Origin: a virus
Direction: 5' to 3' (one strand)
Length of the DNA: 24,710 nt
Virus record (IMG/VR): IMGVR_UViG_3300025383_000101
Coordinates: 1-24,710 of that record
The position numbers were made by a program, and so were the translations under genes. Shown here one piece after another: positions 2,996 to 14,377 of this stretch. The first letter of the stretch is position 1. Every line of letters starts with the position of its first letter. The notes under the pieces were generated by a model that saw nothing but the letters and a program-made list of their open reading frames with translations, was not told where the DNA came from and made no database searches.

Positions 2996-5900
2996 TTATG
3001 GTTTATAGAAATTTAATACATTTGTGGTACCGGAAATACCTTTTTTATTTATGAATATATTATTCAAATTATCTTTTTGTGTTGTATCCTTAACATCTAT
3101 TTCTGAAGAAGTACCTGATTGATACGTTATTGCTTTATCATTTTTTCTAATAGGAAATTTATCTAAATTAAAAACTTTTTGTGGTGGTGTTTTCACAAAT
3201 AAATCAATAATCGCATTCATATTCTCAATATCGGCAGCACTGAATACATCATTTTTTATGATTTGTTTTAATTCATCTTTACTTCCCGATAATAATACTG
3301 ATAATATACTCTTTATTTGTTCAGTTGTGTATTGATTAGTTGATAATAAATCATAAGTTAAATCTTGAGTAAATGGTGTATTAGAATTATTCATATATGT
3401 TAAAACATTAGAATATTGACTATAAAAATCAGAACCACTAAAACTTGTTAAAGGTAATTGAGTGTATGTTGTTCCCGATATTTGTGCATCATGTTCATAT
3501 TTTACTAAGAAATTAACTTCATCTATATTTTTTATAATATCATTTCTTGATGACTCTAAGTCTTTTATTGATTTAGTATCTACTATTCCATCAATTAAAG
3601 TTGAAACTAAATTTTGTATTGAACTTTTTATTATATTTTCAGTAATGGAAGATTTAGTATCTGAAATATCAAAAAATTCAAAAATAAATGATGTTATGTT
3701 TGTATTTGTTAAAGAATAATCCATTATTGTTTTTATTTTCCTTACAATTGTGGGAAAATCATTATCAGTATTTTGTAAACCTAACATCGAATATGTTAAA
3801 GTACTTGTTGGACTATTTTGGATAGTAATATTCTTGATAGTTCTATATTTTGGGTTTAATAATGTACTTGTAATTTCAATACCATATGTAGTCAATAATT
3901 TATTATATGTTGATTGATATGTATTTGTGTAATTACCAACAGTACTAAAAATTAAATTAACAAGATTTGTATAATCCATATTAGTACCCGAAATCGTACC
4001 AAGATATTTTCCTTGTACTACATTTACAGACTGGTCCTTCAAATCGGTAATTAATTGATATTCAGGTTTTTTAGTAAGTTGTTCTAAAAATTCTTTTGTA
4101 AATTGATCTGTTGTTTTACCATTTATTGTTGTTGTTGTAGATTCGGACCTTTCATCATAAATTTCAGTATTGGCAAAGAAATTAGATGATAAAGCGTTTT
4201 GTAATCTTTCAACTGGTTTTTCTAAACCTTGTCCTCCAATGAAACTTACTTGTAAAGTTACATTGGCAATCATTGGTTGGTATCCTATTCCTTCAGGATT
4301 CATATCCCATGGTCCATCGTCATATGTTATCCCAACATCTCTGATGATTATTTTAGAATGGTAAAAATCGCCAATTCTAACTACACAAACAGGAGGTGGT
4401 CCAAATGAAGTATTTCTTGAATTTAAATCCGCATCATCCGATAAACCTTTAATAGGTATTGTATCTCCAGGTCTTAAACATTGTAATAAAAATGTTAAAC
4501 GACTATTCAATCCTTCTGGTGTTGTTGAGTGAAACCCTGGATGAAAATATTTTAATTTTTCTTTAAGAGAATCAAAAACTATTGGTGAATTATTTTCTAA
4601 TTGTTTAAAATAAAAACATTCTGTTAATGTTTTCATTATAATTCTTTTCATTACATCAATACTTGGTTTCTTATTAAAAACTTGTGTATCATCTGGACTA
4701 ACAGTTAATTTAGGTATTTTTACTGTTTTATTTTTTGTAGGTTGTTGTTCTCTTTTTGTTGTTGTTATAACAAGATTAGATTGTCTACAATAAAAGGCAA
4801 CCGGTGCATAATTTTTTAAACCATAATTTGTGTAGATTTTTGTATGACAATCTAAATTTAATTCACTTCCTCCTCCACCATTATTTAATTTTGCATTTTC
4901 TCCTTTTGTACCAAAATAAACAGTTAATTTACCAGTATTACCTTTGTAACCAAATTTATCAAATGTATATTCTTGTACGGTATCTTTAAATTCTATTATA
5001 CTTTTTGATGAATATTGTTTTAATTGTTCATCGGTTTTCCAAACTAAAGTTGGTGGTTGTGCACCATCTGCGGTAATACTTTTAAAAATTTCAGTTAAAA
5101 CAGAATATCCTCTCCTAACTCCCAAATAGAAATTATAATTATCTTCAGCTACTTCAGAAGTAGAAGTAAATAACCAAATTTGTACATCTTGTAATGTATT
5201 ATTACTTATAGCGGTTTTTAAAGTTGATAAATAATTTTTATAATCATTTATATTAGTATTAAGTTTTTCAAATGCGTTACTTAAATCTGTAACTTTAGCA
5301 TCAATTGTTTGTCCACTTGTTGCAGGTACTATTGGTGCTTTTCCAAAAATAGTTTCTCTATCTTTTTGTGCATTAACTGATGTGTCTGGTATCAATTTAT
5401 TTAAATCATTTCTTAATTGTGTTAAGTAATTATTTTTAGATTGATAATATGTTGTACCTAAATCAGAATAATACGATTTTGTTTGTCCGCTTACTCCTCC
5501 AGATGATTTTGGAAAATCATTCATGAAATATAATTCAGTATTAAAATTTGGAATTTGATTTGTTTGATCAGGAGCAGTATTAGGAACTTCAGTTGTAGTA
5601 TCTGTAGAAGTATATTTGTATTTTTTAATTGTTTCTTTAGGTGTACCTGCATTCAAATATGCTTGTATTAAAGAAACATCATTTTGGTCCAATGTTGTAT
5701 ATGTTTGTATTAAACTATAAAAATCTAATTCTTCACATCCAGCAAAAAAAGCATTAATATAATTTTCTGCAACATCATCTGACATTTTACCAAAAACTTC
5801 TCTTGTTAATAAATTTAAAATACTCGGATGGTCAACTACCACTTTAAATGATATTTGTCCTGATCTTGATGCATTTTTATATGTATAAATTGGTTCTGGT

Positions 5901-10663: not shown

Positions 10664-11152
10664 TTAGTATACTAAGATACATCTATCCATTCTTAAAGTA
10701 GCTTGGATAGTAGCCAATTTATCGTCTGAGTAATCTAAGTTTTGGAAATCCAAATCAGATAAGAAAGTACCTTGTAAAATCCATTTTTCAACTACTACAC
10801 CTGTTGGGTCTAATAATTCTAATTCTACATCCTTCTTATAACCAGCAGCATAACCCATACGACCTGTAACAGATTCTGCATGTAAACGGAACCATTCCAT
10901 AAGTGCTTGAGCTGCAGATGGTCCAATTGGATCTCTGAATACTACGTTCATAGTTTCCCACTCAAATCTACCTGCAACATAAGTTGATGTATTTAAAAAC
11001 GGAATTGGAGTAACGTTAATTTTAGCTTTAGGTCTTGCAGCCGATTGTACATACCATTCGTTGATACCCAAAGATGATGGGAATCTTAGTATAAATCGGT
11101 TGACTCTTTTCGGTTCGTAAGGAACCGGCATTTTCATTAGTAAATCTGCCAT
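10664..11152 (-). CDS. gp19: Tail tube protein (gp19-like)
   Basis: At 162 residues it is nearly the same length as T4 gp19 (163). The sequence fits the family: N-terminal MPVPYEPKRVNRFILRFPSS, then GINEWYVQSAARPK (loop before the next strand), FEWETMNVVFRDPIGPSAAQ and MEWFRLHAESVTGRMGYAAG, ending with strands ELELLDPTGVVVEKWILQGT and a final ATIQATLRMDRC. Hexameric rings of this protein stack to form the rigid inner tube driven through the envelope on contraction. It is monocistronic in appearance: a conserved promoter-like box lies 36 bases upstream and a strong terminator follows. Confidence is high from sequence and from the adjacent sheath gene. Confidence 0.95.
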   Translation of the reverse strand: MADLLMKMPVPYEPKRVNRFILRFPSSLGINEWYVQSAARPKAKINVTPIPFLNTSTYVAGRFEWETMNVVFRDPIGPSAAQALMEWFRLHAESVTGRMGYAAGYKKDVELELLDPTGVVVEKWILQGTFLSDLDFQNLDYSDDKLATIQATLRMDRCILVY

Positions 11153-11188: not shown

Positions 11189-11200
11189 TCTTATAAATAT
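11189..11200 (-). promoter_or_regulatory. Late-promoter-like box of the tail tube gene
   Basis: The coding strand reads ATATTTATAAGA, 36 bases before the ATG. The identical 12-mer in the coding direction lies before the sheath and the neck-protein genes. Confidence 0.55.
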
Positions 11201-11263
11201 AACAATATTAGAAAATAATTTTTTTTTAAGATATTATACGAAATACTTGATTTTGTCAAAAAT

Positions 11264-11278: not shown

Positions 11279-11291
11279 ACAGTCACCCAGT

Positions 11292-11357
11292 ATAACCAGT
11301 TCCAGTTTACTACTTTAATATAATATATAATATAAATACTTTAATAACCGGTTCCAG
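11292..11357. repeat. Direct repeats ATAACC(A/G)GTTCCAG
   Basis: Copies at 11292-11305 and 11344-11357 share 13 of 14 bases. Flanking CCAGTATA copies occur at 11287-11294 and 11364-11371. The second repeat contains the palindrome AACCGGTT. The GTTCCA core recurs in both arms of the parS-like palindrome next to them. Confidence 0.75.
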
Positions 11358-11363
11358 AATATA

Positions 11364-11375
11364 CCAGTATACTGG
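11364..11375. repeat. 12-bp palindrome CCAGTATACTGG
   Basis: A perfect dyad that extends one side of the repeat cluster, eight bases left of the parS-like site arm. The half CCAGTATA also occurs at 11287-11294. It is a candidate operator. Confidence 0.6.
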
Positions 11376-11381
11376 GAAAAT

Positions 11382-11399
11382 ATGTTCCACGTGGAACAT
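11382..11399. promoter_or_regulatory. parS-like ParB-binding palindrome
   Basis: A perfect 18-bp palindrome with the central 16 bases TGTTCCACGTGGAACA. Bacterial chromosomal parS has consensus TGTTNCACGTGNAACA, and the 14-base core GTTCCACGTGGAAC is, from memory, an authentic parS form in Pseudomonas. ParB-CTP clamps load at this site and spread along DNA. No ParA or ParB gene is in this window, so either the phage encodes one elsewhere or it recruits the host protein. The palindrome is in noncoding DNA upstream of the tail tube gene and is not part of a terminator (no T run follows). Confidence 0.75.
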
Positions 11400-11403
11400 T
11401 TAA

Positions 11404-11434
11404 TAAAAAAAGGAAGGTATTTCTACCCTCCTTT
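11404..11434 (-). terminator. Rho-independent terminator after the tail sheath gene
   Basis: On the minus strand AAAGGAGGGTA (11434-11424), GAAA tetraloop, TACCTTCCTTT (11419-11409): an 11-bp stem with a single G-U pair, then a T run. It starts 24 bases after the sheath stop codon. On the other strand a T run follows after CTC, so it could be bidirectional. Confidence 0.92.
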
Positions 11435-11458
11435 CTCTTTTTTATATCTCCTTTTAGA

Positions 11459-14377
11459 TTAGATATTTTCAAATGAAGCTCCTGTTGGAGTGATAACAAA
11501 CTCTAAATCAATGAATTCTAAAGAACGAGTTGGTTTCACATAGATTTTACCTCTAAGTGTGTTTGCGTCTATATCTTCAGGTGCACTTGATACAGTTACA
11601 CGGAAGTCATATAAACCTCTTTCTTTCTTGATTGCTTCTAAGATAGGATTTACCAATCTTAAGAATTCTTGTCTTACTTGGTCATCATTTTGTTCAAATA
11701 ACAAACGTACTGCAACTGCGGAAATTAATTTCCTTGCTCTTAATAACAATCTTCTTACGTTAATTCTGTCTAATGCAGACTCTCTAACTTGTAAAGTTTT
11801 GTTACCCCAAATGATTGTTCCTGTATCAGAGAAAGTGGCAATTGGGTTGATTCTATTTTTATATAAATTATCTCTTTCGTCTAAAGTTAATTTCTTTTGT
11901 GCTTTGATTGCATTTACTAAACCTCTTGAATAACCCGCAACCGCGAACCAAGGATAAGATACGTTGTCAGTTAAGGCAATATTCTTAACAACTTCACCTG
12001 TTGGTGGGATATATAATTGAGTTGCATTATCTGTATCTCTAATTTGTATCCAAGGCCAGTATGTTGCTGAATAGTTAGAATCAATCGAAACTGAATCCAA
12101 ATCATCAACCACATTTGATGCATCTGTTTCATTTGGTGCACCAATAATATAAATTGAATCGGCCCTATCGTTTTCAATCATGTCAATTGCTTGAGTAACA
12201 AGAGAACTATGATTTAAGAAATCAATACCCGGTGTAGCAAATACGTTGATATCAACTGCCTCAGGATTTTGATATGTCATAATACCTTGTAAGTATGCAT
12301 AATAATCCGAATTTCCAACTGTAGAACTGAATACACCACCGTTATTCGTATTACCTGAAATATATGTGTGAGTATTGAAAATATATTGGTCGGTGTTAGT
12401 TCTTACATTTCTGTAGATATCCCAACCATCAAAACCACCAAATGCAGCAAAAGTAAACTTACGATAGTTAATATCTGTTAATTTGTTATTTGTTGGGTCA
12501 GATTGACCTTCTAAATCATATGGAGTTGTAATGTATGTTGTTCCTGTAATTGTTGATGCGTTTGTTGATAAGTGGAAACCTTTTGTAGTTCCTGATGCAG
12601 TTACACCTTTAAACTTCAATAAATCACTATCATAGGTAAATGCATTTTGACTTGATAAACCTAAAGATACTTTCTTATATTTGTCACCACTTGACAAAAC
12701 TGGTGTTCCGTCTGGCTTATAATACATTGTTTCACCTGGGTCAAAATAATTTGTTTTATATGTAACAGCACCTAATTTACTATCGTCACCAAAACTATTT
12801 TTATTTGTAAATCCTTTAAAACCAGCAGGTACCGCATCCACAGGAGCATTATCTGCCATAGTCAACATAATATATTTTGAGTTTAATGTATATTCACCAT
12901 CAGATGTACCGATTTTGTTTGCAATATATCCTGCAACATCAGGGTTCATTGAACATCTTGAATATTTTTCTAATACTACTATATTATCATCAGTATCATT
13001 AAAATCACGTACTAATAAATCAAATTCACCTGAATCTAAATTAATATTTTGTATTGTAATTTTTACTTGATTGTTAGCAGATTCACCATCCGAAATAGTA
13101 ATAATGTTAAACAACTCGTCAACTTTACCACCACGAACTTCAGAAACAACTGTATTACTCATTGGAGTATCAAATTCTTTTATGAAATCAGTAGATGCAT
13201 CATCAACAACATATGTAAGTTGTAAACCTCTAATTTTACCTTGTTCGAAAGCGTTTTTCAACCAATTAGGATAAACCTCATGAACATAAACCGGATGGTC
13301 TACATATGATTGGTCATAATTCTCAACTCCCAAAACTTTAGTAATATATTTTGAAGATGTTTGATCTAAAGAAATTGTGAATGATTTATGTCCACCTGTA
13401 GTACCTGTAACATCAATTTGGAATTCTGCTAATGGATTTGATACAATACCACCTGTATCTGTTAATGAAATATTTGAGTTTTGTGTTACTTCTAAAACTA
13501 AATTTTCTTGGTGATAATGACCTCTTGATCTTAAAGCCGCAACTACAACATTATCATAGTCAGCGTCCATTGACGCCAAAAATTCATATCTTACAACTTG
13601 AAATCCATCAGTTACACCAGTACTTGGTACTGTAAATGTATAGCTTGCAACATCATAAATGGTTGTTTCGTCACCTGGAACCGATTCACGGAAACAGGTA
13701 TTATACCATTCTTGTCTATTTTCATTTTCAGCATAAATTTTTCCTGTTAAAGGTGATACTTGTTCTTTATTACGATTCAAAAGTAAAAATTGATCATAGT
13801 TACTACCTTGAGGAACTAAACCAATTTGGAACCATTTTCCAATATCAGAATTTGTTAAACCACTAAATTTTTCACTTATATATGTTAATATTGGTGTACC
13901 GTCATATGCTGTTACACCTGATAAATCCACATAAATATCAGATGCCGTTGGATTATTAGGGTCAAACATGTGATCTGAAGCGGTATTACCTGTATAAGTT
14001 CCTGCTAAATACTCCTCTAAATGGTCTACTAAAATACCACCTTGAGAAACGATACCAAATGTTTTACCTGGATTATATCCTGTTAAACCTAAAACTCTTG
14101 TTACAAAAAGTTGATTTGACTCTTGTAAATAAGATTTAGCAACATATCCTAATTCATATTTTGGATTATTTGCTCCGTCCTTTTCAGGAGAAGTTGGTCC
14201 GAAATATGACTTATAATTGTCAAAACTCGAAATTAAAATTGGTTCGAATGCTGGACCTTGTAAAGTCTCACCCACTAAACCTAATGTAGTTACACCTACA
14301 CTTTGTGCTACGAATGTTAAATCTACCTCTGAAGTGTAAACACCAGGAGATACAAAAACTCTGTTATTACTTGCCAT
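11459..14377 (-). CDS. gp18: Tail sheath protein (gp18-like)
   Basis: The N-terminus has the sheath signature FVSPGVYTSEVDLTFVAQS followed by GLVGETLQGPAFEPILISS and a YFGP segment (residues 8-62). The C-terminal 150 residues carry the conserved sheath core: LQVRESALDRINVRRLLLRA, AVAVRLLFEQND, LVNPILEAIKKERGLYDFRV and a final strand pair. At 972 residues it is about 300 longer than T4 gp18 (659), with the extra sequence in the middle (roughly residues 110-750), where surface-exposed protrusion domains lie in gp18. The gene has its own promoter-like box 33 bases upstream and its own terminator, consistent with high, separate expression. The protein polymerises around the tube and contracts on infection. 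Confidence 0.95.
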   Translation of the reverse strand: MASNNRVFVSPGVYTSEVDLTFVAQSVGVTTLGLVGETLQGPAFEPILISSFDNYKSYFGPTSPEKDGANNPKYELGYVAKSYLQESNQLFVTRVLGLTGYNPGKTFGIVSQGGILVDHLEEYLAGTYTGNTASDHMFDPNNPTASDIYVDLSGVTAYDGTPILTYISEKFSGLTNSDIGKWFQIGLVPQGSNYDQFLLLNRNKEQVSPLTGKIYAENENRQEWYNTCFRESVPGDETTIYDVASYTFTVPSTGVTDGFQVVRYEFLASMDADYDNVVVAALRSRGHYHQENLVLEVTQNSNISLTDTGGIVSNPLAEFQIDVTGTTGGHKSFTISLDQTSSKYITKVLGVENYDQSYVDHPVYVHEVYPNWLKNAFEQGKIRGLQLTYVVDDASTDFIKEFDTPMSNTVVSEVRGGKVDELFNIITISDGESANNQVKITIQNINLDSGEFDLLVRDFNDTDDNIVVLEKYSRCSMNPDVAGYIANKIGTSDGEYTLNSKYIMLTMADNAPVDAVPAGFKGFTNKNSFGDDSKLGAVTYKTNYFDPGETMYYKPDGTPVLSSGDKYKKVSLGLSSQNAFTYDSDLLKFKGVTASGTTKGFHLSTNASTITGTTYITTPYDLEGQSDPTNNKLTDINYRKFTFAAFGGFDGWDIYRNVRTNTDQYIFNTHTYISGNTNNGGVFSSTVGNSDYYAYLQGIMTYQNPEAVDINVFATPGIDFLNHSSLVTQAIDMIENDRADSIYIIGAPNETDASNVVDDLDSVSIDSNYSATYWPWIQIRDTDNATQLYIPPTGEVVKNIALTDNVSYPWFAVAGYSRGLVNAIKAQKKLTLDERDNLYKNRINPIATFSDTGTIIWGNKTLQVRESALDRINVRRLLLRARKLISAVAVRLLFEQNDDQVRQEFLRLVNPILEAIKKERGLYDFRVTVSSAPEDIDANTLRGKIYVKPTRSLEFIDLEFVITPTGASFENI

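Follow-up and report, generated by a model that had tools for sequence, protein, structure and literature searches.

A parS-type palindrome kept between the tail sheath and tail tube genes of T4-like phages, a probable loading site for a ParB-family protein

The stretch of DNA analysed here (the window) is a 24,710-base IMG/VR virus record with about 30% GC. PHROGs were matched by six of the nine scanned window proteins, namely tail sheath, tail tube, baseplate hub, head-tail adaptor, helicase and DNA polymerase. Judged from these protein matches, the window genes are those of a T4-like myophage, and such a gene set points to a lytic lifestyle. Searches of the window with Rfam and for tRNA and tmRNA genes gave no match. 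The gap between the sheath and the tube gene, on which we have focused, contains the following features.

10664..11152, minus strand: tail tube gene, 162 aa (PHROG tail tube, 8.4e-25)
11192..11199, minus strand: TATTTATA, candidate late-promoter motif, 47 nt before the tube start (motif scan)
11233..11259, minus strand: sigma-70-like promoter candidate of the tube gene, TTGACA, 15 bp, TATAAT (read by eye)
11286..11376, no strand assigned: CCAG/CTGG array bounded by the inverted repeat CCCAGTATA / TATACTGGG (repeat listing and word counts)
11382..11399, no strand assigned: parS-type palindrome ATGTTCCACGTGGAACAT, 18-bp, perfect (direct sequence reading and pattern match)
11383-11398, no strand assigned: 16-bp core TGTTCCACGTGGAACA of the palindrome (sequence)
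11402..11441, minus strand: terminator-like hairpin and T-run after the sheath gene, arms 11402-11419 and 11424-11441 (inverted-repeat listing and reading)
11459..14377, minus strand: tail sheath gene, 972 aa (PHROG tail sheath, 1.9e-64)

The palindrome ATGTTCCACGTGGAACAT exactly matches the parS consensus TGTTNCACGTGNAACA, which confirms what an earlier note on this DNA had stated for positions 11382-11399. When the window is scanned with TGTTNCACGTGNAACA, the palindrome is the sole match with fewer than three mismatches, and four other places match at three. From the base composition of the window, the expected numbers per window are 6e-5 for the N-containing consensus, 1.1e-5 for the 14-mer and 1.7e-7 for the 18-mer; the value for the 14-mer agrees with the earlier estimate of about once in 10^5 windows. 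The palindrome is noncoding and lies between the terminator-like hairpin of the sheath gene and the tube gene. The previously described position between sheath terminator and tube promoter is borne out for the hairpin with its T-run and for the two genes, while the promoter is read by eye only. By eye, a hairpin is also seen at the equivalent position in many relatives. As for the late-promoter candidate, TATTTATA is the reverse complement of the T4 late promoter word TATAAATA. It occurs on the sense strand 11-50 nt before the start codons of five of the 14 window ORFs (positions 11192, 14414, 7713, 22899 and 18402) and never in antisense, and before starts in a 233-kb relative (G015) it is found 20 times in sense and 5 times in antisense, over 223 ORFs.

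The word of the phage site is the parS word of Flavobacteriaceae chromosomes. In 13 Bacteroidota genomes, selected for containing the 16-mer, mostly clustered CACGTG sites are present. In an even draw of 60 Flavobacteriaceae genomes, the pattern GTTYCACNNGRAAC is matched in all 60. Since a reversed control pattern also matches many of those genomes (0 to 4 times per strand), it is the core that is decisive for the identification in Flavobacteriaceae, and CACGTG is present in 26 of 26 genomes of this family among the matches listed, usually as two sites ~1.9-2.4 kb apart. This pair flanks mnmG/gidA in both Flavobacteriaceae genomes that were examined. Twelve genomes encode one strong chromosomal-type ParB each, of about 300 aa, and one genome has a second, weak match. 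The phages themselves most likely infect Bacteroidota, as suggested by the count of SD-like motifs (one in 14 window genes) and by the nearest named phages. By tube or sheath, the latter include Flavobacterium phages and Rhodothermus phage RM378; a Microcystis phage scores higher, and none is close. The window DNA polymerase is nearest to that of Salinibacter phages, again not closely.

We have then compared the locus among relatives. A tube-protein search gave at least 80 loci, two more tube queries from other clades added further loci, and the pooled set, with one locus from a pattern scan (L014), contains 197 loci, of which 107 are distinct and have at least 330 nt upstream of the tube gene. 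Elements were called by the two-arm consensus with at most three mismatches, and one false element (TGTTTCAAATGACCCA, with the core CAAATG) was removed, which lowered the count from 71 to 70. Thus defined, the element is found in the sheath-tube gap of 70 of the 107 distinct upstream regions, and the other 37 regions are without it. It lies 234 to ~340 nt upstream of the tube start and follows the sheath gene, usually immediately after the terminator of that gene. Between 12 lineages with CACGTG cores, which were picked across the tube tree and for this core, the element is 92% identical pairwise, and the next 60 nt are 34% identical ungapped and 57% gapped. In the tube-gene tree, CACGTG cores are scattered over many separated branches, with 11 changes needed for presence or absence of the element and 10 for CACGTG versus other cores. 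As only 34 of the 102 inner branches of this tree (106 rows, L242 left out) are strongly supported, it is used for the scatter only. Overall, the palindrome is not a product of chance, as it agrees with the parS of the probable hosts and has kept its place in relatives. Apart from the many windows that were scanned, nothing speaks for a chance palindrome, whose probability is practically negligible when the element is kept in 70 of 107 distinct relatives.

On the other hand, the core of the element is often altered. Of the 70 cores, 30 are CACGTG, 10 CACATG, 9 CACAAG, 7 CACGAG, 4 CACGGG, 4 CACGCG and 3 CATGTG, with 3 singles, so that 40 elements have a core other than CACGTG. The per-position conservation is C in 69/70, A in 69/70, C in 65/70 and G or A in 70/70 at positions 6-9; the arms are almost invariant, and position 10 and the outer right base are variable. 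Even a close relative whose tube protein is 98% identical (L124) keeps the arms and has the core CACAAG, and in another record (L194) the element lies ~40 nt after the tube gene, not before it. Considering these altered cores and the regions without the element, the element should be dispensable or replaceable in many lineages. The earlier reading as a bacterial parS site therefore stands in so far as the palindrome has the sequence of the likely hosts' chromosomal parS and keeps its place, and is weakened by the altered cores and by its absence from 37 of the 107 regions. Likewise, the question whether relatives lose the palindrome while keeping the spacer receives a divided answer, with the majority of regions keeping the element, and L124 and the element-free regions on the other side. 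In one Flavobacteriaceae chromosome (G087; L475 3319-3369), GTTCCACATGGAAC occurs twice in place of the second canonical parS, which means that the altered core of some phages is also found in a host parS cluster.

An intact half-parS, GTTYCAC, is present at least once in 67 of the 70 elements (both halves in 15, left only in 37, right only in 15, neither in 3), a result which the two-arm calling favours. In addition, in the interval from 60 nt ahead of the element to the tube start, 13 of the 70 regions contain extra half-sites, 13 in total against an expectation of 1.3 by Markov resampling; some of these regions belong to close relatives. The regions without the element have 3 half-sites against 0.86 expected. 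According to the parts of the study covered here, P. aeruginosa ParB occupies GTTCCAC/GTTTCAC half-parS in vivo, which account for more than 80% of the ChIP peaks, and the mutation of 25 half-parS had no dominant local effect on transcription (PMC10419367). The sections consulted of a review by the same group state that half-parS binding is absent in B. subtilis, S. coelicolor, V. cholerae and C. glutamicum (PMC7022226).

The pattern of change also bears on whether the element acts as DNA or as RNA. With its stem GTTCC/GGAAC next to the terminator, and with many variants in which the arms are retained while the four central bases differ, it might be taken for an RNA stem-loop serving as a terminator or processing signal. 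However, in 33 distinct strings, including a false hit that contributes nothing to these counts, the arm pair cells hold 8 C:A combinations, which break the stem in the sense strand, and 6 T:G combinations, which leave a wobble pair. As the two changes are about equally common, the stem of neither strand is preserved, and Rfam gave no match in the window. To judge from these strings, the changes are those of a DNA site rather than of an RNA stem, and we consider the RNA explanation very unlikely. A DNA site could also be an operator for an unrelated phage dimer which reads GTTCC-N4-GGAAC, the exact parS cores being by-products. The contrast between the almost invariant arms and the variable position 10 and outer right base would suit such an operator, as would the non-CACGTG cores of 40 elements and a place upstream of a late gene. 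Yet positions 6-9 of the core are strongly conserved too, the extra copies are of the GTTYCAC half-site and not of the arm alone, the word is identical with the parS of the probable hosts, and one relative (G124) has canonical sites at another locus and none in the tail gap. An unrelated operator is thus rather unlikely. An exact parS, kept in position, identical to that of the likely hosts and behaving as half-sites do, is most simply accounted for by a ParB loading site. Based on these comparisons of sequence, we consider it probable, with some reservation, that the palindrome is a parS-type site at which a ParB-family protein is loaded, and that selection has kept it in a large group of T4-like phages.

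The number of sites per genome is usually one. In the window record, GTTNCACGTGNAAC is matched within one mismatch at a single place, which is the palindrome. Among 26 tube-bearing records, 13 have an exact match to GTTYCACNNGRAAC, at one place each, including records of 233 and 288 kb, several of the 13 being one lineage. In a second set of 15 records, nine have a match to GTTYCACNNGRAAC, eight of them at a single place; a 310-kb record (G101) has a second match with the core CACCGG, and a 176-kb record (G102) has the tube gene and neither the site nor a ParB-fold gene. Flavobacterium phage immuto has a sheath-tube gap of only ~45 nt, and no match to GTTYCACNNGRAAC was found on either strand of the 13 kb examined. 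These copy numbers matter for the idea that the site is a decoy which titrates host ParB during infection, that is, the same binding with another purpose. A decoy shares the support of the loading-site reading, and replication would bring many copies into a cell whose chromosome usually has two sites among the genomes listed. But one site per genome makes a poor sponge, and titration needs no fixed placement between sheath and tube, so the decoy appears improbable. A replication origin at the site was also considered and rejected, as the GC skew of G015 has no clear turn at 65-70 kb.

Outside these tail loci, exact parS words occur in at least 120 stretches of other viral contigs, in mixed contexts. 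Among the 120 matches listed, the first site lies inside a frame of at least 200 aa in 46 and in no 100-aa frame in 55, and ten genes near parS words in eight low-to-middle-GC viral contigs have no common function. When the 30 bases around the site were compared with named phages by BLAST, 191 records matched, and 86 of these reached at least 99% identity along a portion of the query. Some further observations were made on the contigs. One phage contig (L105) has five exact copies of TGTTCCACGTGGAACA in 11.5 kb, at 4324, 6308, 8135, 9161 and 10442, one of which is directly before a helicase gene (PHROG 62). In the spacers of L155, L183 and L513, the sheath gene end is abutted by the final part of a further open frame, which by eye resembles EWEIM...WDCGSMKFELNL and is perhaps an inserted gene. 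Finally, L209 (7307-19999, which is ~107-120 kb of G015) contains an open frame of at least 4,231 aa with 48% Thr, 21% Pro and TPTVT-type repeats, where the GC skew is near -0.74.

Which protein would read the site depends partly on what the phages encode. A weak ParB_N match in two of 14 records (G015 and G016) drew attention to a protein of 251 aa, which belongs to PHROG 12305 (annotated as ParB-like) and has relatives in other large contigs. Its structure model, built from 18 sequences, has a pLDDT of 88 and supersedes a shallower first model (pLDDT 65). Compared with Caulobacter ParB 7bm8, the model gives Z 11.5 with 90 residues at 2.0 A in the first domain, and with M. xanthus ParB 7bnr Z 11.7 with 131 residues at an rmsd of 10.7. 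With KorB 8qa9, 166 residues align at 4.3 A (residues 7-205, running into the DNA-binding part), and with Noc 7nfu 168 residues at 5.2 A. According to the model, the N-domain of this protein has the ParB CTPase fold, the assignment of the part after it being less sure. The ParB_N score is below the cut-off, and the HTH_ParB profile is not among the matches listed for the protein; with both, it is unlikely that the protein has kept the ParB specificity unchanged. In 19 records of relatives, which reach 310 kb at most and are possibly incomplete, no ParA-type ATPase (PF13614) was found, while 14 of 14 controls were positive; the window record, itself a fragment, is outside this set.

All of the ten records with both tube and ParB-fold genes carry parS-type sites, a co-occurrence which comes from few independent lineages and from fragments. 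The sites are exact in G015, G016, G101, G116 and G117, and have a GAG core in G119, G120, G122 and G123. The tenth, G124, is the relative whose tail gap is without a site, and there four canonical sites surround the ParB-fold gene; in G127, of the same lineage, five do so. These sites are in gaps; wherever the stretch examined includes the next start codon, they precede it by ~130-380 nt. In most relatives the gene and the site are apart, as in G015, where the gene is at 220 kb and the site at 67 kb. Of 20 ParB-fold loci searched on both strands, mostly 1.5 kb to each side, 13 have no match to GTTYCACNNGRAAC, 5 have a CACACG core and 2 have canonical sites. The last two (L478 and L479) are one lineage, and as they are the sole canonical loci, the link between the ParB-fold gene and nearby sites rests on that lineage. 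The CACACG-core word, GTTCCACACGGAAC, is inside the 3' part of the ParB-fold gene in L487, L488, L489, L491 and L492, which form one subfamily, and may be a chance of coding. Among 17 ParB-fold records, nine have no match, and the tube gene is absent from the six of these that were searched for it; those six are probably fragments or other phages.

A complete ParABS system of the phage is rejected, and the plasmid-like partition system which the earlier note had listed as a possibility is not supported, as no ParA was found in the 19 records and a ParB-fold gene adjoins parS only in the G124/G127 lineage. The phage-encoded ParB listed in the same note survives in part: relatives do encode a ParB-fold protein, which in most is not beside a canonical site. 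The window record has no second site within one mismatch of GTTNCACGTGNAAC. It is possible, though doubtful, that only the phage's own ParA-less ParB-fold protein reads the site, as a phage regulator like KorB, Noc or VirB, and that the likeness to host parS is inherited or coincidental. The alignment of the 251-aa model with ParB, KorB and Noc would fit this, as would the canonical sites that surround the gene, four in G124 and five in G127, and the sites in all ten records with both genes. Against it stand the 13 of 20 ParB-fold loci that lack GTTYCACNNGRAAC, the five with only an in-frame CACACG core, the restriction of canonical sites to one lineage, and the profile results, which make an unchanged specificity unlikely; moreover, the gene is known from relatives, while the window genome is a fragment. 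If the palindrome is a ParB loading site, we lean towards host chromosomal ParB as its reader, on the grounds that the word is that of the host parS and that the phage protein is too distant in sequence from known ParBs for an unchanged specificity to be expected. The phage ParA-less ParB-fold protein is the main alternative, for which the G124/G127 lineage speaks, and both proteins may read the site.

Several known systems are comparable. The phage site and the chromosomal parS of Bacteroidota have the identical 16-bp word TGTTCCACGTGGAACA and share variants (GTTTCACGTGGAAC, and a CACATG core in one genome), whereas the phages differ from chromosomal ParABS in usually having one site, in its position between late tail genes, and in that no ParA was found in the records examined. 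The closest phage case is Bacillus phage phi29, whose genome has four exact TGTTTCACGTGGAACA sites; Meijer et al. are said to have reported in 2005 that host Spo0J uses them. It is likewise a lytic phage with an exact host-type parS (a lytic life being deduced from the genes in our case). Unlike the phages here, which are T4-like, up to ~310 kb, and have one intergenic site, phi29 is a podophage of 19 kb that infects a sporulating Firmicute, and three of its four sites are inside annotated genes. Phages P1 and N15 and extrachromosomal mycobacteriophages also have a parS-like site on the phage genome. In these, ParA and ParB are encoded beside the site and the prophage is in a plasmid state, neither of which is seen here. 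With regard to half-parS in P. aeruginosa, the binding unit GTTCCAC/GTTTCAC fits the degenerate elements, whereas those half-sites are, in the parts of the study covered, heptamers scattered over the chromosome, and the phages have, at a single locus, a palindrome of which one half or both are intact (PMC10419367). Among ParA-less members of the ParB family, Noc, KorB and VirB are comparable in that the relatives' modelled protein resembles ParB, KorB and Noc. Unlike them, it is without a listed HTH_ParB match and usually does not adjoin the canonical site. In the literature covered (titles and abstract openings, with few subscription papers), no parS in T4-like or jumbo phages was found, and a survey of the ParB-CTPase fold that includes phages does not mention the present case in the parts covered (PMC12704722).

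If the loading-site reading holds, the following course may be envisaged. After infection, a ParB dimer would recognise the site through its two GTTYCAC half-sites. The bound dimer would then close as a CTP clamp, a step that is established for chromosomal ParB, and could slide over the neighbouring tail genes. Early in infection, with few copies and one site per genome, ParB might serve to mark the phage genome and to hold it, and might dampen the late genes next to the site. Replication would multiply the sites, so that ParB is spread thin and drawn away from the host chromosome, and the late genes would be freed. A local damping is plausible, since P. aeruginosa ParB represses the genes next to parS3 and parS4, as described in the part of the review covered (PMC7022226), whereas the half-site mutations in the same species, being without a dominant local effect, count against it.

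The rest of the spacer has a character of its own. In the window, six CCAG/CTGG words lie in the 100 bp from 11281, which is the window maximum, and in relatives (including L122-L331 and L513) the array of the spacer is made of CTAG instead. Over 106 loci, CTAG has a density of 11.1 per kb within 330 nt upstream of the tube gene and of 0.91 per kb elsewhere. In G015, one of 2,335 bins of 100 bp has 8 CTAG and the others have at most 2, and L513 has ten copies of a 15-bp CTAG unit and 20 CTAG in its spacer. At least two CTAG are found in 64 of 70 regions with the palindrome and in 25 of 36 without it, i.e. in 89 of 106 overall, so the array is spread more widely than the parS-type site. By contrast, the whole window has no CTAG where 36.5 are expected and 16 GATC where 72 are expected, and G015 (233 kb) has no GATC where 640 are expected. 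From these counts, the depletion of CTAG and GATC looks like an avoidance of restriction sites. It is conceivable, though we hold it to be quite improbable, that the sheath-tube gap is a composite phage centromere, with parS beside an iteron-like CTAG array to which a second phage protein would bind. Together with the ParA-less phage ParB, it would couple clamp loading to genome counting and late-gene timing in T4-like Bacteroidota phages, and it could move to another locus, as in G124, if the site is kept.

If the palindrome is indeed a ParB loading site, large lytic phages of Bacteroidota would have retained a bacterial centromere word across a wide evolutionary span, usually with one copy per genome, and some of them would also encode a ParB-fold protein of their own, with no ParA found. 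The ParB clamp would thereby gain a role outside segregation, in late-gene timing, genome marking or host takeover, and the case of phi29 would be extended from sporulating hosts to environmental T4-like phages.
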